Shown: positions 1-62,074 of the stretch, in pieces
Layout of the letters: every line of letters begins with the position of its first letter
Position numbering within the stretch: position 1 is the first letter of the stretch
DNA from: Tsukamurella asaccharolytica
GTDB lineage: Bacteria; Actinomycetota; Actinomycetes; Mycobacteriales; Mycobacteriaceae
Reading direction: 5' to 3'
Assembly (NCBI RefSeq): GCF_007858435.1
Contig: NZ_VIGW01000008.1
Span: forward strand, 62,001 to 126,000
DNA length: 64,000 nucleotides
Notes under the pieces: generated by a model
Databases searched by the model: none
The model's input: only the letters and a program-made list of their open reading frames with translations
Told to the model about the DNA's origin: nothing
Made by a program: the position numbers and the translations under genes

Positions 1-3000
1 GTCTTCGCGACCGACGAGGACGTCCCGGAGGACGAGGTCGACGACGCGCCCGCCGAGGCCGCGGCGCCCGCCGCGACGGCGGCCCCGGCCGCCGCGCCGG
101 TCACGAGCGCACCGTCGGGCGGCCCCCGACCGGCCGACCTCGGCTTCGACGCCGCGGACGCCACCCGCGCCATGATCGCGATCTGGACCAAGATGCGTCC
201 GGACCAGCTGGAGAAGACCGACACCATCGAGACGCTGTGCGACGGCGTGAGCTCGCGCCGCAACCAGCTGCTCCTCGACCTGGGCAGCGAGCTCAACCTC
301 GGCGCCATCGACGGTGCCGCAGAGGCCGACCTGCCGACCCTGGCCGGCACCGTCACCAAGCTGGCCCGCACGTACAAGCCGCTCGGCCCCGTGCTCTCCG
401 AGACCGTCGGCAACCAGCTGCGCAAGCTGCTGGGCTCGACCGGCAAGCGGCCGAACTACATCACCGAGTACGTGACCGGCACCTGGGAGCTGGGCCCGGG
501 CTGGGCGCAGCACACTGTGCTCGCGCTGGCCACCGGCACCCGCGAGGGCGCCTCGGTCCGCGGCGGCGACCTGGCGACGCTGCTCGACGGCCCCGTCTCC
601 AACGCGGCCGCGCTCGACGCGCTGATCGACCGCGCGGTCGCCGAGGTCGGCGCCGCGCAGGGCGTGCCCGTCGGCAAGCCGTCGGCCGGCGGCGGTGGCG
701 CGGGCGCCACCGTCGACGCGGCGGCGCTCGCCGAGTTCACCTCGGCGATCACCGGCCCCGATGGCGCCCTGGCCGCCTCGGCCCGCGTGCTCCTGAGCAA
801 GTTGGGTCTCGAGGACGAGCAGGGGGGCCTGCCCTCGCTCGACGACGAGTCGGAGCGGCTCGCCGCGCTGATCGCCACCGAGCTGGGCGACGACTGGGCG
901 ACCTCGGTCGCGCCGGCCTTCGACGCCAACAAGGCCGTCCTCATCGACGACCGCTGGGCCAGCGCCCGCGAGGACCTGCTCCGCGTGTGGAACATGGACC
1001 CGGCGACCTTCCCGACCTACAGCAAGCACATTCTGGAGACCGCCAAGGGCGCAGGCAAGGCGCTGCAGGACCAGGCGCGGTGGTGGGAGAAGAAGGCCAC
1101 CGAGGCCGGCCGCCCGGAGCACGCCCGGGCCTACGCCTTCCTTTCCGGCCTGGCCACGAGCAGCCCGGAGCCGGGCGTCTACGCCGGCGAGGTCGCCGTC
1201 GTCACCGGGGCCTCCGCCGGGTCGATCGCTGCGGCCGTCGCCGCGCGCCTGCTCGCGGGCGGTGCGACGGTGATCGCGACGACCAGCCGGCTCGACGACA
1301 AGCGGCTCGACTTCTTCAAGGAGCTCTACCGCACCAGCGCCCGGACCGACGCCGCGCTGTGGGTCGTGCCCGCGAACATGGCGAGTTACGCCGATGTCGA
1401 CGCGCTCAGCGCGTGGATCGGGGAGCGTCAGGCCGAGACCGTCGGCCCGTACACCATGGTCCACAAGGAGGCCCTGGTCCCGACGATGCTGTTCCCGTTC
1501 GCGGCGCCCCGCGTCTCGGGCGACATGTCGGACGCCGGCCCGCGCGCCGAGCTCGAGATGAAGATCCTGCTGTGGTCGGTCGAGCGGCTCATCGCCGGTC
1601 TCGCCGCCATCGGCAAGGACACCGACCTGGCCTCGCGGCTGCACGTCGTGCTCCCGGGTTCGCCGAACCGCGGCATGTTCGGCGGCGACGGTGCCTACGG
1701 CGAGTCGAAGGCCTCCCTGGACGCCCTCGTCACCCGCTGGAGCGCCGAGAAGTCCTGGTCCGAGCGCGTCACCCTGGCTCACGCCATCATCGGCTGGGTC
1801 CGCGGCACGGGCCTCATGGGCGGCAACGACCCGCTGGTCGAGGCCGTCGAGGCGGCCGGCGTGCGCACCTGGTCCACCTTCGAGATGGCCGACAAGCTGC
1901 TGGCGAACGCCAGCGCCGAGGCGCGGGAGCGCGCCGCGACGGCGCCGCTGTTCGACGACCTCACCGGCGGCCTGGGCGGCGTCACCCTGGATATGAAGGC
2001 GCTCGCCGAGCAGGCCATGGAGGCCCGCCTGGCCGAGGCCGCCGAGGCCGAGGACGAGGGCACCATCGACGCCCTGCCCGGCGCCCCGGTCGCCACCCTC
2101 CGCGAGCCGGAGTGGGGCTCCGTCGAGGCCCGGCCCGAGGACATGGTCGTCATCGTCGGCGCCGGCGAGGTGGGCCCGTACGGCAGCTCGCGCACCCGCT
2201 TCGAGATGGAGGTCGACGAGCGGCTCTCCGCCGCGGGCGTCGCCGAGCTCGCCTGGGTGACCGGCATGATCACCTGGGAGAACGACCCGGAGCCGGGCTG
2301 GTACGACACAGAGTCGGGCGACCTGGTGCCCGAGGCCGAGCTGGCCGACACCTACCACGACGCGGTCGTCGAACGCTGCGGCATCCGCGCGTTCAGCGAC
2401 GACGGCGACATCGTCGACCAGGCGGCGCCGCTGCTGGTGTCGGTCTTCCTGCCCGAGGACATGTCCTTCGTGGTGGCGAACGAGGCCGAGGCCCGCGCCT
2501 TCGCGGACGCGGACCCGGAGCACACCGTCGCGGTGCCGATGGAGTCGGGGGAGTGGCGGGTCACCCGTAAGGCGGGCACCGAGATCCGCGTGCCGCGTCG
2601 CACCAAGCTGCTGCGCAGCGTGGGCGGGCAGGTGCCGGACGGTTTCGATCCCACCCACTGGGGCATCACGCCCGAGATGATCGAGTCGGTCGATCGGCTC
2701 GCCCTGTGGAACCTGGTCGCCACCGTCGACGCCTTCATCTCCGCGGGCTTCGAGCCGGCCGAACTGATGGAGTACGTGCACCCGTCGCACGTCGCCAACA
2801 CGCAGGGCACCGGCATGGGCGGCATGAGCTCCATGCGCGACCTGTTCATCAACACCCTGCTGGGCGAGCCGAACCAGAACGACATCCTGCAGGAGGCCCT
2901 GCCGAACGTCGTCGCCGCCCACGTGGTGCAGAGCTACGTCGGCAGCTACGGCGCGATGATCCACCCGGTCGCGGCCTGCGCCACGGCGGCGGTCTCGGTG

Positions 3001-4053
3001 GAGGAGGGTGTCGACAAGATCAAGGTCGGCAAGGCCCTGTTCGCGGTCACCGGCGGCTTCGACGACCTGTCCATCGAGGGCATCACCGGCTTCGGCATGA
3101 TGCAGGCGACCGCGGACAGCGCCAAGATGCTGTCCAAGGGCATCAGCCCGCGCCGCTTCTCCCGCGCCAACGACCGGCGGCGCGCCGGCTTCGTCGAGGC
3201 GCAGGGCGGCGGCACCGTCCTGCTGGCCCGCGGCGACGTCGCGGCGAAGATGGGTCTGCCGGTGCTCGGCGTGGTCGCGTGGGCGCAGAGTTTCGGCGAC
3301 GGTGTGCACACGTCCATCCCGGCTCCCGGCATGGGTGCGCTGTCCGTGGCCGCCGGGGGCCCGGAGGCGCCGATGGCGCGCAGCCTGCGGCAGCTGGGGG
3401 TGGCGGCGGACGACGTCTCGATCATCAGCAAGCACGACACGTCGACGAACGCGAACGACCCGAACGAGGCGAACCTGCACGAGCGGATCGCCGCGTCGAT
3501 CGGCCGGTCCGAGGGCGCACCGATGTTCGTGGTCTCGCAGAAGTCGCTCACCGGTCACGCCAAGGGCGGCGCCGCCGCCTTCCAGCTGATCGGCATGTGC
3601 CAGATGCTCAACGACCAGGTGGTACCGCCGAACCGCAGCCTCGACTGCGTGGACGACGAGATGCGCAAATACCCGCACCTGGTGTGGCTGCGCGAGACCC
3701 ACCGATTCGACGCGAGCTTCCGCCCCAAGGCGGGCCTGCTCACCTCGCTCGGCTTCGGTCACGTCTCGGGCCTCATCGCGGTCGTGCACCGCGACGCCTT
3801 CCTCGCCTCGCTGGAGCCGGCGGCCCGCGCCGCGTACCTCGCGACGGCGCGCGAGCGCGAGGTCGCGGGTGCCCGCGCGGTGCTCTCCGCGATGTGCGGC
3901 CGGTCGAGCCTGTACCGCAAGCCCCCGGCGGGCCGGCGCTTCGGCGCCGACGCCACGGCGGAGGCGACGGACCGGAACGAGGCGGCCCTGCTGCTCGACG
4001 AGGCCGTGCGGCTCGGATCCGACGGCACGTACTGCGCCGACGGATGCCGGTAG
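1..4053 (+). CDS. fas: Type I fatty acid synthase, C-terminal part (partial; 5' end outside window)
   Basis: This is the 3' part of the giant single-chain FAS-I that makes acyl-CoAs for membrane lipids and mycolate precursors in the cytoplasm. The frame is already open at base 1, inside an Ala/Pro-rich linker, so the ATG at 172 is internal. Domains follow the order of the fungal alpha chain. First comes ACP; aligned with the fungal motif, the likely phosphopantetheine serine is codon 253-255 in GVSSRRNQ. Next is the ketoreductase, with the NADPH motif VTGASAGS at 1201-1224, Tyr at 1696 and Lys at 1708. Last is the ketosynthase, with Cys at 2977 (VAACATA), His at 3433 (KHDTSTNAND) and His at 3556 (LTGHAKGG). 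There is no C-terminal phosphopantetheinyl transferase domain; acpS lies 17 bp downstream and supplies that activity. Identification is secure; only the upstream domains are missing. Confidence 0.97.
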   Translation, partial: VFATDEDVPEDEVDDAPAEAAAPAATAAPAAAPVTSAPSGGPRPADLGFDAADATRAMIAIWTKMRPDQLEKTDTIETLCDGVSSRRNQLLLDLGSELNLGAIDGAAEADLPTLAGTVTKLARTYKPLGPVLSETVGNQLRKLLGSTGKRPNYITEYVTGTWELGPGWAQHTVLALATGTREGASVRGGDLATLLDGPVSNAAALDALIDRAVAEVGAAQGVPVGKPSAGGGGAGATVDAAALAEFTSAITGPDGALAASARVLLSKLGLEDEQGGLPSLDDESERLAALIATELGDDWATSVAPAFDANKAVLIDDRWASAREDLLRVWNMDPATFPTYSKHILETAKGAGKALQDQARWWEKKATEAGRPEHARAYAFLSGLATSSPEPGVYAGEVAVVTGASAGSIAAAVAARLLAGGATVIATTSRLDDKRLDFFKELYRTSARTDAALWVVPANMASYADVDALSAWIGERQAETVGPYTMVHKEALVPTMLFPFAAPRVSGDMSDAGPRAELEMKILLWSVERLIAGLAAIGKDTDLASRLHVVLPGSPNRGMFGGDGAYGESKASLDALVTRWSAEKSWSERVTLAHAIIGWVRGTGLMGGNDPLVEAVEAAGVRTWSTFEMADKLLANASAEARERAATAPLFDDLTGGLGGVTLDMKALAEQAMEARLAEAAEAEDEGTIDALPGAPVATLREPEWGSVEARPEDMVVIVGAGEVGPYGSSRTRFEMEVDERLSAAGVAELAWVTGMITWENDPEPGWYDTESGDLVPEAELADTYHDAVVERCGIRAFSDDGDIVDQAAPLLVSVFLPEDMSFVVANEAEARAFADADPEHTVAVPMESGEWRVTRKAGTEIRVPRRTKLLRSVGGQVPDGFDPTHWGITPEMIESVDRLALWNLVATVDAFISAGFEPAELMEYVHPSHVANTQGTGMGGMSSMRDLFINTLLGEPNQNDILQEALPNVVAAHVVQSYVGSYGAMIHPVAACATAAVSVEEGVDKIKVGKALFAVTGGFDDLSIEGITGFGMMQATADSAKMLSKGISPRRFSRANDRRRAGFVEAQGGGTVLLARGDVAAKMGLPVLGVVAWAQSFGDGVHTSIPAPGMGALSVAAGGPEAPMARSLRQLGVAADDVSIISKHDTSTNANDPNEANLHERIAASIGRSEGAPMFVVSQKSLTGHAKGGAAAFQLIGMCQMLNDQVVPPNRSLDCVDDEMRKYPHLVWLRETHRFDASFRPKAGLLTSLGFGHVSGLIAVVHRDAFLASLEPAARAAYLATAREREVAGARAVLSAMCGRSSLYRKPPAGRRFGADATAEATDRNEAALLLDEAVRLGSDGTYCADGCR

Positions 4054-46981: not shown

Positions 46982-46993
46982 GGAGTGAGCGTC

Positions 46994-49048
46994 ATGGGCG
47001 GCAGGATGCTGGAGAGCTATGCGTGCGGCCGGTGGCACCGCGCGACGGACGAGGGCCGAGCGGTGGTCAGCCCCGTCGACGGGGCCGAGGTCGCGAGGGT
47101 CTCGTCGACCGGCCTGGACGTCGCCGCGATGGCGACCTACGCCCGCGAGACCGGCGGCCCTGCCCTCGCCGCACTGACCTTCCACGAGCGCGCCGCGGCG
47201 CTCAAAGCGCTCGGCCTCACCCTGATGGCGGGCAAGGCGGAGTTCTACGCCGAGTCCGCCCGGACCGGCGCCACCGAGCGGGACTCGGCCGTCGACATCG
47301 ACGGCGGCTTCGGCACCCTGCTCAGCTACGCCAGCAAAGCAAAGCGCGAGCTTCCCAACGACGTGATCCACCTCGACGGTCCCGTCGAGCAGCTCGGCAA
47401 GAAGGGCACCTTCGTCGCGCGGCACGTCCACACCTCGCGCCGGGGCGTCGCGGTGCAGATCAACGCCTACAACTTCCCCGTCTGGGGCTTCCTCGAGAAG
47501 TTGGCGCCCGCCTTCATCGCCGGCGTGCCCACCATCGTCAAGCCCGCCACCCAGACGGCCTACCTCACCGAGCTCGTCTTCCGCCGGATCATCGAATCCG
47601 GACTGCTCCCCGAGGGGGCCGTGCAGCTGCTGTGCGGGAACCCGGCGCCCCTGCTCGAGGCCCTCGGCGGCCAGGACTCCGTCGCCTTCACCGGCTCCGC
47701 ACACACGGCGGCGATCCTGCGCGCGCACCCGGTTCTCGTGGAGCGCAGCGTGCACTTCACCGCCGAGGCCGATTCGCTCAACGCCTCCGTCCTCGGCTCC
47801 GACGTCACGCCGGACGCCCCGGAGTTCGAGCTGTACGTCAAGCAGCTCACGATCGAGATGACCGTCAAGGCCGGGCAGAAGTGCACCGCCATCCGCCGCG
47901 CGCTCGTCCCGGAGTCGATGGTCGACGCGGTGATCGAGGCCGCGCGGGCGCGCCTCGACCGGGTGGTCGTGGGTGCGCCCGGCGCCGAGGGGGTCACCAT
48001 GGGCCCCGTCGTCTCCCTGGCGCAGCGCACCGACGTGCTCGCGGCCGTGGACAAGCTCCGCGGGGCCGCCGAGCTGGTGGTCGGCGATCCGGACCACGTC
48101 GCCGTGGTCGGCGGGGACCGCGCTACCGGCGCCTACCTGCCTCCGATGCTGCTGCGCTGCACGGATCCCGAGGCGCCCGAGGTGCATGAGATCGAGGCCT
48201 TCGGGCCGGTCGCGACGGTCATCGGCTACCGCGACACCGCCCACGCGGTCGAGCTGATCGCGCGCGGTGGGGGCAGCCTGGTGGCCTCCCTGGTGACCGC
48301 CGATCCGCGGCTCGCCAGGGACGTCCTGCTCGGGGTCGCCCCGTACCACGGCCGGCTCCTGGTGCTCAACGCCGAGAATGCCGGGGAGTCCACCGGCCAC
48401 GGTTCGCCGTTGCCCGTGCTCGTGCACGGCGGTCCGGGTCGCGCCGGCGGCGGCGAGGAGCTCGGTGGCATCCGCGGCGTGTTGCACCACATGCAGCGCA
48501 CCGCGATCCAGGGCACCCCGGAGGTGCTCGCCGCCGCGACCGGTCAGTGGGTCACCGGTGCACCGCGCGTGGAGAGCGACGAGCACCCGTTCCGGAAGTC
48601 GTTGGCTGAGCTCAGGATCGGCGACACCATCGAGGGCGGACCGCGCACCGTCACCCTCGCGGACATCGGCCACTTCGCGGACTTCACCGGCGACACCTTC
48701 TACGCCCACACCGATCCGGTGGCAGCGGCGGCGAACCCTCTGTTCGGCGGCATCGTCGCGCACGGCTACCTCGTGGTGTCCTTGGCGGCGGGCCTCTTCG
48801 TCGACCCCGCGCCCGGCCCCGTGCTGGCGAACTTCGGTGTCGACTCGCTCCGCTTCCTCACCCCGGTGCGCGCGGACGACGCGCTGACGGTGACCCTCAC
48901 CGCCAAGCAGATCACCCCGCGCAGCGGCGCCGACTACGGCGAGGTGCGCTGGGACGCCGTGGTCGTCAACCAGGACGGCGCGCCCGTCGCCACCTACGAC
49001 GTGCTGACCCTCGTCGCGAAGACCCGGGACGGCGGCGAAGGCCGGTGA
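46994..49048 (+). CDS. paaZ: Oxepin-CoA hydrolase / 3-oxo-5,6-dehydrosuberyl-CoA semialdehyde dehydrogenase
   Basis: A 684-aa bifunctional ring-opening enzyme. The N-terminal aldehyde dehydrogenase (~1-515) has the Glu region VHFTAEADSLNAS, the catalytic Cys in VKAGQKCTAIRRAL and PEAPEVHEIEAFGPVA. The C-terminal MaoC-type hot-dog hydratase (~535-684) has DFTGDTFYAHTD with the Asp/His pair and FGGIVAHGYLVVSL. ATG 46994 is chosen because AAGGAG ends 8 bp upstream; GTG 46985 in the same frame overlaps that ribosome site. It is followed by paaI with a 4-bp overlap. Confidence 0.95.
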   Translation: MGGRMLESYACGRWHRATDEGRAVVSPVDGAEVARVSSTGLDVAAMATYARETGGPALAALTFHERAAALKALGLTLMAGKAEFYAESARTGATERDSAVDIDGGFGTLLSYASKAKRELPNDVIHLDGPVEQLGKKGTFVARHVHTSRRGVAVQINAYNFPVWGFLEKLAPAFIAGVPTIVKPATQTAYLTELVFRRIIESGLLPEGAVQLLCGNPAPLLEALGGQDSVAFTGSAHTAAILRAHPVLVERSVHFTAEADSLNASVLGSDVTPDAPEFELYVKQLTIEMTVKAGQKCTAIRRALVPESMVDAVIEAARARLDRVVVGAPGAEGVTMGPVVSLAQRTDVLAAVDKLRGAAELVVGDPDHVAVVGGDRATGAYLPPMLLRCTDPEAPEVHEIEAFGPVATVIGYRDTAHAVELIARGGGSLVASLVTADPRLARDVLLGVAPYHGRLLVLNAENAGESTGHGSPLPVLVHGGPGRAGGGEELGGIRGVLHHMQRTAIQGTPEVLAAATGQWVTGAPRVESDEHPFRKSLAELRIGDTIEGGPRTVTLADIGHFADFTGDTFYAHTDPVAAAANPLFGGIVAHGYLVVSLAAGLFVDPAPGPVLANFGVDSLRFLTPVRADDALTVTLTAKQITPRSGADYGEVRWDAVVVNQDGAPVATYDVLTLVAKTRDGGEGR

Positions 49049-49488
49049 CCGCCATCGCGCGGGGCGGGGAGTGCGAGCCCGCCCGGTCGATGTTCGCCGC
49101 CGACAAGGCCTCCCGGGCCCTCGGCATCGAGATCGTCGATCTCCGCGCCGGCGCCGCGACCACGACGGTCACGGTGGGGGAGGCCATGGTCAACGGGCAC
49201 GGGATCACCCACGGCGGCTATGTCTTCCTGCTGGCCGACACCACCTTCGCCCTCGCGTGCAACTCGCGGGGCGACGCCGCCGTCGCCGCGCGCGCCGACA
49301 TCCGGTTCCTGCGCGCCACGCGGCTCGGCGACGTGCTCACCGCGACTGCGATCGAGCGGGAGCGGTTCGGCCGCAACGGCCTGTACGACGTCACGGTGCG
49401 GCGCGGTGACGAGGTGATCGCGGAGTTCCGCGGCGACAGCCGAACCCTCCCGTCGGGGCCCGCGAGGGGCGGGCCTGACCTCAGCTGA
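49045..49488 (+). CDS. paaI: Phenylacetate-pathway thioesterase
   Basis: A 147-aa hot-dog thioesterase that hydrolyses stalled aryl-CoA intermediates and frees CoA. Signature NGHGITHGGYVFLLADTTFALACNSRG with the catalytic Asp, and RADIRFLRATRLGDVLTATA. GTG 49045 overlaps paaZ (GTGA). The 3' end overlaps the convergent ABC permease gene by 8 bp. Confidence 0.93.
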   Translation: MTAIARGGECEPARSMFAADKASRALGIEIVDLRAGAATTTVTVGEAMVNGHGITHGGYVFLLADTTFALACNSRGDAAVAARADIRFLRATRLGDVLTATAIERERFGRNGLYDVTVRRGDEVIAEFRGDSRTLPSGPARGGPDLS

Positions 49489-50365
49489 CGACGTCCTTCG
49501 TGCGGAAGCCGCGGACCGCGAGCGCGAAGAAGACGACGGCGATGCTCACCGAGAGCGCGACGCCCTGCGCCATCGCCGCCCACTCGATGTCCGGCTGCAG
49601 CAGGTCGGTCCAGGCGTACTGCCAGTGCGCCGGCAGCGCGGCGCGCAGGCCGCCGAGGGCGGTCACCTGGTCGAGGACGCTGCCGATCACGGTGAGGCCC
49701 ACGGCCCCGCCGACCGCCGCGAGCGGCGCGTCGGTGCGGGTCGAGAGCCACAGCGCGAGACCCGCGGTGGCGAGCTCGGAGACGATGATGAAGCCGGCCG
49801 CGAGCAGCAACCGCCACAGGCCGTCGGCCGCCGGTATCGCGGTGCTCGCGGGCGTCTGCAGCGGGCCCCAGCCGTAGGCGAGGGTGCCCGCGACCAGTGC
49901 GACCGCCGTGAGCAGCGCGATCGAGGCGATCGACAGGATCAGTGCGACGATGGCCTTCGTGACCAGCAGCCGGGTCCGTGGGACCGGTGCGGCCAGCAGG
50001 TACCGCAGCGACGACCAGTCCGCTTCCGAGGCCACGGCGTCGCCGAAGTACAGCGCCACGGGGATCACCAGCAGGAATCCGGTGCCCGCAATGAGGACGG
50101 TCGCGGTCAGGTTGAGCCCCGAGGTGGTCGCGACGTCGAACATCGACGGCCGCCCGCTGCCGCGGCCGTCGTCGTCGGTGCCCACGGCGAGAGCGACGAT
50201 CAACACGATCGGCAGCGCCGCGAGGAGTGCCGCCATCACCAGGGTGCGGCGGCGCCGCAGCTGCCGGGCGAGCTCCACGCGCACCGTCAGGGTGTGCCCG
50301 GGCGTGTACCCCGGGGCGGCGCCGTGCGCGGAGTCGCGCGCGGTGGAGTCCTTCGTGGTGGTCAT
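49481..50365 (-). CDS. ABC transporter permease (ABC-2 type) partner of the hydrolase-ABC fusion
   Basis: A 294-aa membrane protein with six predicted TM helices: ~42-62, ~87-107, ~135-160, ~183-210, ~220-240 and ~265-285. The fold and the GDAVASEADWSSLRYLLAAPVPRTRLLVTKAIVAL block are typical of ABC-2 permeases. The start overlaps the stop of the upstream ATPase-fusion gene (ATGA), so the two are translated together and probably form the transporter. The substrate is unknown. Confidence 0.85.
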   Translation of the reverse strand: MTTTKDSTARDSAHGAAPGYTPGHTLTVRVELARQLRRRRTLVMAALLAALPIVLIVALAVGTDDDGRGSGRPSMFDVATTSGLNLTATVLIAGTGFLLVIPVALYFGDAVASEADWSSLRYLLAAPVPRTRLLVTKAIVALILSIASIALLTAVALVAGTLAYGWGPLQTPASTAIPAADGLWRLLLAAGFIIVSELATAGLALWLSTRTDAPLAAVGGAVGLTVIGSVLDQVTALGGLRAALPAHWQYAWTDLLQPDIEWAAMAQGVALSVSIAVVFFALAVRGFRTKDVVS

Positions 50366-52809
50366 GCCTCGTCTCCTGTCAGCTGGAGGAACGCGTCTTC
50401 GAGGGTGCGCGAGCCGCCGTCCTCGCCCGCCTGCACGATCTCGTCGACGGTGCCGGCGGCGATGAGCTCGCCGCGGCGCAGCACCACGACGTGCGTGCAG
50501 GTCTGCTCGACCTCCGCCAGCAGGTGGCTGGAGACGATCACGGTCCGGCCGGTGGCGCCGTAGCGGACGATCGCGGCGCGCATCTCGCGGATCTGGGACG
50601 GGTCGAGGCCGTTGGTGGGCTCGTCGAGCACCAGCACGTCGGGCAGGCCGAGCATCGCCTGAGCGATGGCCAGGCGCTGGCGCATGCCCTGCGAGTACGT
50701 GCGCACGGGGCGCTGCAGCGCGCTGCCGAGGTCGGCGATCTCGAGCGCCTCCTCGAGGTGCGCCTGATCGGCCGGGCGGCCGGTGGCGCGCCAGTACAGA
50801 TCCAGGTTGGCCCGGCCCGACAGGTGCGGCAGGAAGCCCGCGCCCTCCACGAAGGCGCCGACCCGCGAGAGCACCGGCGCGCCGGGCCGGATGGCGTGCC
50901 CGAAGACCCTGATCTCGCCCTCATCGGGCGTGATCAGCCCCATCAGCATGCGTAGGGTGGTCGTCTTGCCCGCGCCGTTGGGGCCCAACAGGCCCAGCAC
51001 CTGGCCCCGGTCCACCCGGAAGGTGACGTCTCGCACGCTGTAACCGTCGCCGCCCGCGTACTTCTTGGACAGGCCGCTCACCTGGAGCGCGACATCGGCC
51101 AGGTCCGGGTCGACGGGCGGCGCCCCGCGCGGGCGCCTTACGAGGAGCACGGCCGCGGCGATCCCCAGCGCGACGAGCGGCAGCACCCACACCCAGGTGG
51201 GCAGCGGCGCCGGCGCAGTCTTCAGGGCCGGAACCTCGGGCACGGTCAGCGGACCGGTCGCCGTGATCGTGTGCGTCGCGGGCGCGTTCGGCGAAAGATA
51301 GGCCAGGTCGGTGGTCGCGAGCGCCAGACGCATCCGGTGACCGGCCGCGAACTCGTGGTCGATGACGGGCAGCCGGATCGTCGCCGTGGCCGATCCGCCG
51401 GTCACCGGGATCCGGATCGGCGCGGCGAGCTGCTGCGGCAGGGTCTGCGTGCCCTCGGGGCTCACGTCGTAGAGCTTGGCGAAGAGCACAGCCTCGGGTG
51501 CGGCGGAGTCGACCCTGATCGTCACCGTCGGTCCTCCGGTCACGGTGACCGGCTCGCTCAGCGGTTCGGAGTCGACGATGGCGGCCTGCGCCGGAAGGTC
51601 GCGTGAGAGCCCGGCGGCGCCGAGCGCAGCGGCGGAGGAGGCCAGGCCGCCGAGCCCAGGGACGCCCGAGATCGACGGCGGCGCACCGCCCGCCGGGTTC
51701 TCCGCCTGCTGCGGGGTACGCGGCAGCTCGACGGTCCGCGTGATGGTCCCGCCGAGCCCGGGGTAGGTGTCGGTGCTCGAGGCGCGGATCGTGCGCTCGC
51801 CGGACTCGCGGTCCACCCCGCCGGACCGGGAGACCTGGAACGCGGGCACGACGGGGGCGTCCTCGCCCTTGAGGTACCGGTCGAACCATTCCGTCGTGCG
51901 GGCGTTCACTCGAGCGTCCTCGGCGCTACCGGCGTCGTGCCCCCCGGCGATCCAGTCGACCGCGACGGGCGCGCCGTTCGCCGCGATGCGGCGTGCCGCC
52001 GCGTCGGCGTGCTCGAGCGGGAAGAGCGAATCGAGCTCGCCCTGCGCGAGGTACGTGGGGACGCGGATGTCCGCGCCCACCGTCGCGGGGCTCCGCGCAG
52101 CGAGCAGCGCGCGGTCGGCGTCCGTCACCGCGCCGCCCTGGGCGACCCGCGTGTACATCTCGCAGACGGCCGGCTCGAACCGGGCGCAGCCGCCCCCCAT
52201 CGCGAACAGGATGCCGGCCCACTGCTTCTTGTAGACGCCCCCCGGGAACAGCGCCTGCTCGAGGTCCCAGTAGGTGATGCGCGGGGCGATGGCGTCGACG
52301 CGCGGGTCGCGCCCGGCGAGCAGGAGCGCCAGAGCGCCGCCGTAGCTGCCGCCGGCCACTCCGACGCGGGGGTCTCCGGGCCGGTCCTGCTGCACATCGG
52401 GGCGCGCGGCGAGCCAGTCGAGGAGCTTGCGGGCGTCGGCCACTTCGGCGTCGGGGGAATCGAGCCCGACCAGCCCCGTCGACTTCCCGAAGCCGCGCGC
52501 CGTGTACGTGAGGACCGCGTAGCCCCGTCCGGCGAGCTGTTCGGCCTCGTCGCGCACGTCCTCCTTGGAACCGCCGAAGCCGTGCGCGAGGAGCACCGCC
52601 GGCGCGGGGGTGGCACCGTCGGGCCGGAAGAAGGAGGTGTCCAGGCGCACCCCGGCCCCGTCGATCGTTTGGTCGGTGCGCTGGAACGACGGCGTGCCGC
52701 TTGCTCCCGCGAGGCCGCAGGCGGCCAGGATGATCAGGACGGCGACCAGCGCCGCACCGGTGACGAGCGGGCGCGCTGTGGCGCCGCGCAGAGCGCGAGG
52801 TGGGGGCAC
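50362..52809 (-). CDS. Fusion: lipoprotein CocE/S15-like hydrolase + TM helix + ABC ATPase
   Basis: An 815-aa protein of unusual architecture. Residues 1-30 are a signal with lipobox LAAC (Cys31). Residues ~50-330 are an alpha/beta hydrolase: LLAHGFGGSKED, Ser155 in GGSYGG, Asp260 in QGELDSLFP, His291 in GGHDAG. A jelly-roll domain of the X-Pro peptidase C-terminal type follows (~400-520). One TM helix (~537-557) leads to a cytoplasmic ABC ATPase (~570-815): Walker A GPNGAGKTT (609-617), signature YSQGMRQRLA, Walker B VLVLDEPTNG and an H-loop in VSSHLL. GTG 52809 is chosen because TATCCT lies 6 bp upstream, a leaderless promoter, and gives a proper signal peptide; the frame continues 27 codons upstream. 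The permease gene follows with a 4-bp overlap. Confidence 0.85.
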   Translation of the reverse strand: MPPPRALRGATARPLVTGAALVAVLIILAACGLAGASGTPSFQRTDQTIDGAGVRLDTSFFRPDGATPAPAVLLAHGFGGSKEDVRDEAEQLAGRGYAVLTYTARGFGKSTGLVGLDSPDAEVADARKLLDWLAARPDVQQDRPGDPRVGVAGGSYGGALALLLAGRDPRVDAIAPRITYWDLEQALFPGGVYKKQWAGILFAMGGGCARFEPAVCEMYTRVAQGGAVTDADRALLAARSPATVGADIRVPTYLAQGELDSLFPLEHADAAARRIAANGAPVAVDWIAGGHDAGSAEDARVNARTTEWFDRYLKGEDAPVVPAFQVSRSGGVDRESGERTIRASSTDTYPGLGGTITRTVELPRTPQQAENPAGGAPPSISGVPGLGGLASSAAALGAAGLSRDLPAQAAIVDSEPLSEPVTVTGGPTVTIRVDSAAPEAVLFAKLYDVSPEGTQTLPQQLAAPIRIPVTGGSATATIRLPVIDHEFAAGHRMRLALATTDLAYLSPNAPATHTITATGPLTVPEVPALKTAPAPLPTWVWVLPLVALGIAAAVLLVRRPRGAPPVDPDLADVALQVSGLSKKYAGGDGYSVRDVTFRVDRGQVLGLLGPNGAGKTTTLRMLMGLITPDEGEIRVFGHAIRPGAPVLSRVGAFVEGAGFLPHLSGRANLDLYWRATGRPADQAHLEEALEIADLGSALQRPVRTYSQGMRQRLAIAQAMLGLPDVLVLDEPTNGLDPSQIREMRAAIVRYGATGRTVIVSSHLLAEVEQTCTHVVVLRRGELIAAGTVDEIVQAGEDGGSRTLEDAFLQLTGDEA

Positions 52810-52815
52810 CCGACC

Positions 52816-52821
52816 AGGATA
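52816..52821 (-). promoter_or_regulatory. -10 box for a leaderless transcript of the hydrolase-ABC fusion
   Basis: TATCCT on the minus strand ends 6 bp before the GTG at 52809. Spacing puts the transcription start at or beside the start codon, a common arrangement in Mycobacteriales. No ribosome site precedes the GTG. Confidence 0.5.
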
Positions 52822-52950
52822 GGTGCGCTCGTCCGCGCTCGCCGCTGCGCGGATTCCGCCCACGGCGAAAAAGACTTTGCGATAGGCCATCGACGGCTGT
52901 CAGAGTGGGATCCGGCACTGACCGGGGAGTGGCCGGCGCGGGATACCGCG

Positions 52951-53026
52951 GCCGGTTCCGCGTGTTCGAACCGGCAAACCGACCAGTGGCACGGCCCCAC
53001 CAGGGCTCAGAGGGTTCGAGTCCCTC
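52951..53026 (+). other. Hairpin and tRNA 3'-half-like sequence (relic)
   Basis: In the 360-bp gap 52810-53169, GCCGGTTC/GAACCGGC (52951-52975) forms an 8-bp hairpin. Further on, GAGGG-TTCGAGT-CCCTC (53010-53026) is a perfect tRNA T-arm, followed by GACCACC, like the 3' acceptor strand of a tRNA. No complementary 5' acceptor strand or proper D-arm is present upstream, so this is not a full tRNA. It may be a leftover tRNA 3' end or an attachment-site remnant. Nothing else was recognised in the gap. Confidence 0.35.
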
Positions 53027-53169
53027 GACCACCGTCCCGCCGGAAGCGCGGGCGGCAGCGGCCCTGCGATGCCCGGCCACGGCCCGGGACATCCCGCCGC
53101 CGCTGCCCGCCCGGCGGGCCGGCGCCACACCCATCAAGGCCCTCGGGCCGCCACGAGAGGAGATCCACC

Positions 53170-53844
53170 GTGTCGATCATGACCGCAGTCCGCGGCCGAC
53201 GCATCGTCGTGCCGGTGGGCCGCCGCGCCGTCGAGTTCCGGGACGGCGCCGTCGCCCGCGTCCTCGAGTCCGGCCCTCATCGGGTTCGTCGGGCGCACAG
53301 CGTCGTCCCCGTCGTCGTCGCCGAGCGGCTGCTGGCCGTCGCGCCGCAGGAGGTCGTCACCGCTGAGTCCGTCCCGGTCCGGGTGTCGATGGCGCTGCGC
53401 GTGCGTGTCGCCGATCCCGTCGCGTACCTCGAGCGCGCCGCCGATCCCGACGCCGTCGTCTACCTGGCGGCGCAGGTCGCGCTGCGGGAGGTTCTGGGCG
53501 GCATCGGTATTGACGACCTGGTGCGCCGCACGGCGGCCGTCGACGGTGAGGCGATCCGCTCGCGCGTCGGCCCGGCCTCCGAGTCCGTGGGGATCGAGGT
53601 GCTCACCGTGGTGGTCAAGGACGTGGTGCTGCCGGCCGAGATCCGGAGCGCCGCGGTCGGCCTGATCACCGCCAAGGCGCGGGGCGCCGCCCGGCTGGAG
53701 GAGGCGCGGGCCGAGACGGCCGCGCTGCGGGCGCTCGCCAACGCCGGCCGGATGCTCGACGGCTCCCCGGCGCTGGCACGCCTGCGGATGATCGAGGCGA
53801 CGCCGCCCGGCGCGACGATCGTCTTCAGCGACACGGGTCGGTGA
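53170..53844 (+). CDS. SPFH/band 7 (slipin-like) domain protein
   Basis: A 224-aa protein whose central part (~20-190) matches the stomatin/slipin SPFH fold: RVLESGPHRVRRAHSVVPVVV, VRVSMALRVRVADPVAYLERAADPDAVVYLAAQVALREVLG, and VKDVVLPAEIRSAAVGLITAKARGAARLEEARAETAALRALANA. It lacks the N-terminal hydrophobic hairpin that anchors typical slipins, so it may be peripheral or soluble. GTG 53170 is preceded by GAGAGGAG 8 bp upstream; ATG 53179 is an alternative. Role unknown; family members scaffold membrane protein complexes. Confidence 0.8.
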   Translation: MSIMTAVRGRRIVVPVGRRAVEFRDGAVARVLESGPHRVRRAHSVVPVVVAERLLAVAPQEVVTAESVPVRVSMALRVRVADPVAYLERAADPDAVVYLAAQVALREVLGGIGIDDLVRRTAAVDGEAIRSRVGPASESVGIEVLTVVVKDVVLPAEIRSAAVGLITAKARGAARLEEARAETAALRALANAGRMLDGSPALARLRMIEATPPGATIVFSDTGR

Positions 53845-61995: not shown

Positions 61996-62074
61996 GGCTG
62001 CCACGGCGGTGGGACGGGCACGCCGCCGAACCGCCCGTCATCCACAGATAAGCGTATGTAACGTTTTTCCTCCA

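Follow-up and report, generated by a model that had tools for sequence, protein, structure and literature searches.

ABC-2 exporters such as DrrAB, NodIJ and the lantibiotic-immunity systems pair an ATP-binding cassette (ABC) ATPase carrying all motifs with a separate six-helix ABC-2 permease, the two genes being joined by a stop-start overlap, and to our knowledge none of them has an N-terminal hydrolase domain. In FtsEX, the ATPase is placed inside, the hydrolase outside and the permease between them, with the hydrolase being a separate protein bound by FtsX, and the system switches cell-wall hydrolases on and off. In C39-type ABC transporters, an ABC ATPase shares its chain with a protease-like domain, the cytoplasmic cysteine protease C39. 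Here, we describe a gene of Tsukamurella asaccharolytica found in a stretch of 64,000 nucleotides (nt) (positions 62,001 to 126,000 of contig NZ_VIGW01000008.1, hereafter the window), which together with its neighbor resembles the ABC-2 exporters in the full-motif ATPase, the separate six-helix permease and the stop-start overlap. The ATPase differs from theirs in carrying an N-terminal hydrolase, predicted to be outside, and a transmembrane (TM) helix. Compared to FtsEX, the hydrolase is part of the ATPase chain instead of a separate protein, and compared to C39 exporters, it is a serine hydrolase predicted to lie outside; no C39 peptidase match was observed in a Pfam scan of the fusion. A survey table includes one example, YP_434618.1 of Hahella chejuensis, combining a DD-peptidase (S12) with ABC_tran (PMC2605481). 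As entered in that table, this protein is likewise a serine hydrolase-ABC ATPase fusion, yet the hydrolase families differ. No description of the hydrolase-ABC fusion was found in the literature searched, which included few subscription papers.

Anatomy of the fusion and its permease partner

Judging from its frame and its relatives, the hydrolase-ABC fusion is real and also occurs in other genomes. On the minus strand, the frame 50362-52890 runs uninterrupted over 842 codons and reads as a single chain consisting of a signal segment, a serine hydrolase, a PepX_C domain, one TM helix and an ABC ATPase, as the earlier note on this DNA had proposed. The note had named a frameshift between the domains, or two separate proteins, as observations that would speak against a single chain. 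The guanine-cytosine (GC) content by codon position is of the coding type in all four frame segments tested, including the inter-domain link (0.89-0.97 at third positions, GC3), so that no frameshift is seen between the domains, and at the sequence level nothing points to two proteins. The anatomy, the conservation of the catalytic residues in hydrolase and ATPase and that of the two-gene unit are established by sequence comparison, and we propose, with a rough probability of one half, that the unit forms an ABC-2 exporter whose tethered hydrolase processes the cargo outside. The features are as follows, with residues counted in the 842-codon frame.

50362..52809, minus strand: fusion gene with its likely GTG start, 815 amino acids (aa), including export segment, hydrolase, TM helix and ABC ATPase (open frame, domains, inferred start)
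52711..52767, minus strand: N-terminal hydrophobic export segment, residues 42-60, hydropathy 2.66; relatives are also hydrophobic N-terminally
52717..52728, minus strand: LAAC lipobox-like motif with Cys58, lineage-specific; Cys in 9/121 fused proteins, all Tsukamurella
51871..52653, minus strand: alpha/beta hydrolase domain, predicted extracytoplasmic, residues ~80-340; Pfam Peptidase_S15, Abhydrolase_1, Hydrolase_4 and DLH, NCBIfam CocE_NonD above cut-off
52345..52347, minus strand: nucleophile Ser182 in GGSYGG, invariant in 121/121 fused proteins
52030..52032, minus strand: catalytic Asp287, invariant in 121/121
51937..51939, minus strand: catalytic His318, invariant in 121/121
51274..51642, minus strand: PepX_C (jelly-roll type), residues 417-539, Pfam PF08530, E 8.6e-11, above cut-off; in 43/43 proteins of alignment A1
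51139..51195, minus strand: TM helix, residues 566-584, followed by basic RRPR; hydropathy 2.52, same place in relatives
50365..51096, minus strand: ABC ATPase domain, predicted cytoplasmic, residues 599-842; Pfam ABC_tran at residues 620-760, E 6.8e-30, above cut-off
50362..50365, minus strand: ATGA stop-start overlap of 4 nt joining fusion and permease; overlap kind kept in 114/120 fused loci
49481..50365, minus strand: ABC-2 permease, 294 aa, six helices predicted by hydropathy; Pfam ABC2_membrane_4 and ABC2_membrane_2 above cut-off

The conservation counts stem from 128 loci (L009-L136), of which 120 contain the fused frame, with the permease located by tblastn. The eight left out are six loci fetched as apparently unfused (L119-L124, with L124 cut by the contig end), a CocE-type control (L127) and a broken copy (L021). 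Adding the window gives 121 aligned fused proteins, while two alignments, A1 and A2, hold 43 and 24 proteins, respectively. Three pairs (L009/L089, L052/L112 and L104/L134) do not differ in their last 600 residues, and the counts are therefore not of independent lineages. The Ser-Asp-His triad and the jelly-roll domain reported by the earlier note were both recovered, as were all motifs of the ATPase, where Walker A Lys642, signature Ser733, Walker B Asp756-Glu757 and H-loop His789 are invariant in the 121 proteins. The permease is next on the same strand in 119 of the 120 fused loci, the remaining locus having no room for it, and the overlap is ATGA in 93, GTGA in 20 and TTGA in one, which supports the translational coupling suggested before.

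The closest NCBIfam profiles for the ATPase are DrrA, lantibiotic-protection and NodI, all scoring under their own cut-offs (DrrA 180.9 vs 312.45), and its PDB matches are led by ABCA lipid transporters, followed by NosF; the ATPase thus resembles those of exporters. The genome of the window carries one copy of the whole fusion; of its 76 other matches, one is to a stand-alone CocE-type hydrolase and the rest are to the ATPase part. The closest ATPase paralogue in this genome (L002, G000:C11:460724-461425) apparently forms one frame with a hydrophobic permease-like part, as read by eye, and a 607-aa frame in another genome (L120, G074) matches both ATPase and permease.

Hydropathy analysis of the fusion gave two helices, residues 42-60 and 566-584. 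At least two Arg or Lys residues are found in columns 580-599, directly after the TM helix, in 121/121 fused proteins, while Cys235 and Cys243 are present in 116/121 and 118/121, a pair that would suit an extracellular disulfide. Because of the export segments, the Cys pair and the basic residues following the TM helix, the hydrolase is predicted to be outside and the ATPase inside, in agreement with the topology first proposed. The lipobox of the earlier note is present in the window protein, but lipidation does not hold as a general feature: Cys58 is confined to the nine Tsukamurella proteins, a further member of this genus, L090, has a Cys nearby and L013 (T. spumae) has Trp, and the Streptomyces members listed have an N-terminal hydrophobic segment without a lipobox there. 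Outside the 121-protein set, a separate LGAC lipobox was read by eye in L155, as was a signal peptide of the AxA type in L153. As the type of N-terminal signal varies by lineage while export stays, the common feature is the export segment and not lipidation.

The hydrolase part shares Peptidase_S15, PepX_C, the GxSYxG nucleophile, Asp and His with CocE/NonD enzymes and X-Pro dipeptidyl-peptidases (MEROPS S15), while differing in the added ATPase and in its oxyanion segment. The Pfam Peptidase_S15 match spans residues 80-223 (E 1.5e-22, above cut-off), and TIGR00976 (CocE/NonD) is passed with 119.5 bits vs a cut-off of 66.3. To this extent the earlier CocE/S15-like label stands, yet it is a loose one, as the oxyanion segment reads HGFG, the HGF of which aligns with TPY in the own-genome CocE-type protein (L127, the one comparison protein, itself a full-length Peptidase_S15 match). 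A Tyr in the oxyanion-hole PY motif defines the CocE/NonD family and acts in CocE. This Tyr is absent from the corresponding segment of the fusion, where His103, Gly104 and Phe105 are kept in 118/121, 121/121 and 119/121 proteins, respectively. The X-Pro or cocaine-esterase-like specificity put forward earlier is unsupported, since HGFG replaces the TPY of the own-genome enzyme and makes such chemistry doubtful, and the Xaa-Pro dipeptidyl-peptidase model NF003780 was failed with 47.8 bits vs a cut-off of 642. A PepX_C domain is described as obligatory in the bacterial dipeptidyl peptidases of PF02129, in passages that mention no ATPase fusion (PMC11878206). The closest solved relatives of the hydrolase profile are PDB 8yzn and 8yzo (E ~2e-37, profile positions 54-474 of 495), which are named Lipase; they are alike in the hydrolase profile and differ in their length of ~505 aa and in having no ATPase, and neither is named in any paper within the literature searched. 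Overall, the hydrolase is more likely an esterase or acyl-bond hydrolase than a peptidase.

Distribution and ancestry

Searches for the fusion covered Actinomycetota chromosomes, using genome samples that overlap, include the genome of the window and use different E limits. Scanning named genomes gave at least 505 related stretches, and the best 80 belong to Tsukamurella, Streptomyces, Streptacidiphilus and Actinacidiphila, plus one unverified record labelled Actinomadura; in Nonomuraea gerenzanensis, the fusion is found in one 969-aa frame, and S. albidoflavus NRRL B-1271 (L024) carries the gene as well. Within the sampled genomes of the GTDB order, 216/298 match at 1e-60, and the fusion itself was seen for the matches listed, which cross both domains in one frame, while an ATPase-permease chain (G074) is counted among the 216. 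The class sample gave matches in 73/296 genomes at 1e-90 and the phylum sample in 30/396 at 1e-60; at least five of the latter 30 are not the fusion but the ATPase-permease chain of G074, a hydrolase alone (G303) or ATPase plus permease only (G347, G385 and G511). Since the fused frame recurs in many actinobacterial families, it is beyond chance, and the expectation that similar fusions exist in related genomes was borne out. That they would be unannotated was only partly right, and under-annotated is the better word, as the sole annotated copy examined, from T. tyrosinosolvens, is labelled "alpha/beta fold hydrolase".

In the genus of the window, the hydrolase is found in 14/16 genomes, both misses being draft assemblies, whereas several sister genera of the family gave no match in the genomes sampled. 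G463 lacks the fusion, though it shares the family and genus code (f18, g78) of many matching genomes. Three genomes of 1.3-1.4 Mb carry the fusion, which argues against a dispensable extra. An in-frame stop interrupts a few copies, e.g., in G453 and G849, and the copy of Tsukamurella sp. PLM1 (L021) is not readable as one frame, reflecting either real inactivation or a sequencing error.

Beyond the permease, no neighbor recurs across lineages in the loci compared, as judged partly by eye, and the fusion with its permease therefore looks self-contained. The flanks repeat within Streptomyces, where aldehyde dehydrogenase, thiamine-diphosphate enzyme and IolB-like genes are found upstream and vWA and AMP-ligase proteins downstream, as read from sequence. 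These flanking genes were not seen in the other lineages compared, and the neighborhood was dropped as a clue to the substrate.

Three distant genomes (G347, G385 and G511) encode an unfused ATPase of the fusion type followed by a permease, with no hydrolase relative at 1e-15 (G347 being 82 per cent complete). In one FastTree of the ABC domain, these three ATPases fall inside the fused group with a support of 0.516, and the tree does not separate a single origin of the fusion from loss. The same tree groups Tsukamurella with Streptomyces and allies in a clade of 92 leaves (0.996), without other loci of its GTDB order; this grouping apart from its own order suggests that the module reached Tsukamurella by transfer, as far as one tree of one domain can tell. 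L119 (G303, 1742-3538, 599 aa), a stand-alone hydrolase that has S15 and PepX_C domains but lacks an ATPase, is possibly a relative of the source of the fused hydrolase domain.

Proposed function and its rivals

We infer that the two genes form one complex of the ABC-2 exporter type, probably with two fusion chains and two permeases. Here, the ATPase half would drive the permease, while the export segment and the single TM helix would hold the serine hydrolase on the outside of the membrane, where the permease opens. A cargo bearing an ester or amide would most likely be moved outward, the direction being taken from the family, and the tethered hydrolase may trim or release it on arrival. The physical linkage of the hydrolase to transport, as claimed by the earlier note, follows from the anatomy of the chain, while its action on the exported cargo is a supposition. 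In favor of an exporter, both catalytic centers are intact in every fused protein and the permease almost always lies directly downstream. Several observations weigh against it. ATPase-permease pairs without a hydrolase exist (L121, L122 and L123), which means that the transporter core can occur on its own, and the fusion is not universal, since 82/298 order genomes (1e-60) and 223/296 class genomes (at the stricter 1e-90) gave no match. In addition, the hydrolase is conserved less than the ATPase, with a median identity to the window outside Tsukamurella of 0.58 vs 0.79 (PepX_C region 0.48), and that the hydrolase and the permease would share a substrate is an assumption of the model.

The main rival to cargo processing is a hydrolase gated by ATP, in which nothing is transported and ATP turnover shifts the permease and the TM helix, thereby switching the outside hydrolase in an FtsEX-like manner. 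This would make the fusion an undescribed actinobacterial machine, where ATP hydrolysis inside gates or times a serine hydrolase outside, within one polypeptide and via the TM helix and ABC-2 permease, the substrate being a lipid or peptide of the envelope. The catalytic residues, invariant in hydrolase and ATPase alike, their union in one chain and the fixed permease partner would all suit such gating. The same holds for NosF, which works with an extracytoplasmic partner protein and is one of the best bacterial PDB matches to the ATPase. Yet the permease has the usual six-helix ABC-2 make-up and matches ABC2 families only, FtsX being absent from its Pfam matches, and ATPase-permease pairs lacking the hydrolase exist. 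The FtsE model was not passed either (94.7 bits vs a cut-off of 264.85). We regard gating as a doubtful, though tenable, alternative. Alternatively, the fusion may serve only as an anchor, tethering an esterase or peptidase that has a general envelope or nutrient-scavenging role and is uncoupled from transport. The lower conservation of the hydrolase and its stand-alone relative L119 are in line with this, but the combination is kept across many families with the permease adjoining, and a lipobox or TM anchor would suffice without an ATPase, making this explanation unlikely.

Self-defence is a further candidate, in which a drug-type ATPase and permease expel a toxic molecule that the hydrolase inactivates, or in which the hydrolase activates a compound exported by the cell itself. 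While DrrA and lantibiotic-protection profiles top the NCBIfam list for the ATPase and a quorum-quenching lactonase model (UilS) is second for the hydrolase, the latter scores 61.8 vs a cut-off of 400 and the former fall far under their cut-offs as well. Moreover, no biosynthetic or resistance genes recur beside the fusion in the loci compared, and the 216/298 matches in the order look core rather than accessory, leaving self-defence quite improbable. A defence or phage role was rejected, with PADLOC matching the ATPase region only and PHROGs giving matches to generic ABC and esterase families. The fusion is common in sampled actinobacteria, and the one annotated copy examined is labelled as a hydrolase only, which hints at a widespread function in the envelope or in export. 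With both active sites invariant, coupling could be tested directly by inactivating either side, and if the two are coupled, chemistry outside would be joined to energy inside in a single chain.

Start codon and flanking genes

Two further features concern the start of the gene.

50362..52890, minus strand: open reading frame as first proposed, with an ATG start at 52890, 842 aa; codons 1-27 probably remain untranslated
52816..52821, minus strand: TATCCT, candidate -10 element, 6 nt 5' of the GTG; one base is changed in L013 among the window and 11 relatives

The window and 11 Tsukamurella relatives share the sequence TAT(C/T)CTGG followed by a GTG that lies 6 nt past the hexamer, while their upstream DNA otherwise diverges. 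Because of this conservation amid diverging DNA, the gene probably has a leaderless start at the GTG of 52809 and a product of 815 aa, and the ATG at 52890 assumed by the earlier note is not supported, the conserved TATCCT-N6-GTG pointing to the GTG instead. Against a promoter at this place, a sigma-70 consensus scan of 49300-53300 gave no promoter-like site. In the T. tyrosinosolvens copy (L109, locus 6157, WP_232066410.1), the annotated start lies 52 codons inside the matching frame, within the hydrophobic segment; it is probably wrong, as it would remove most of the export segment.

Finally, a divergent Band 7/SPFH gene (53170-53844, plus strand) adjoins the fusion in the window and likewise in T. 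tyrosinosolvens. On the other side, 46985-49488 (plus strand) contains phenylacetate degradation genes encoding a PaaZ bifunctional protein and a PaaI thioesterase, both above their NCBIfam cut-offs.

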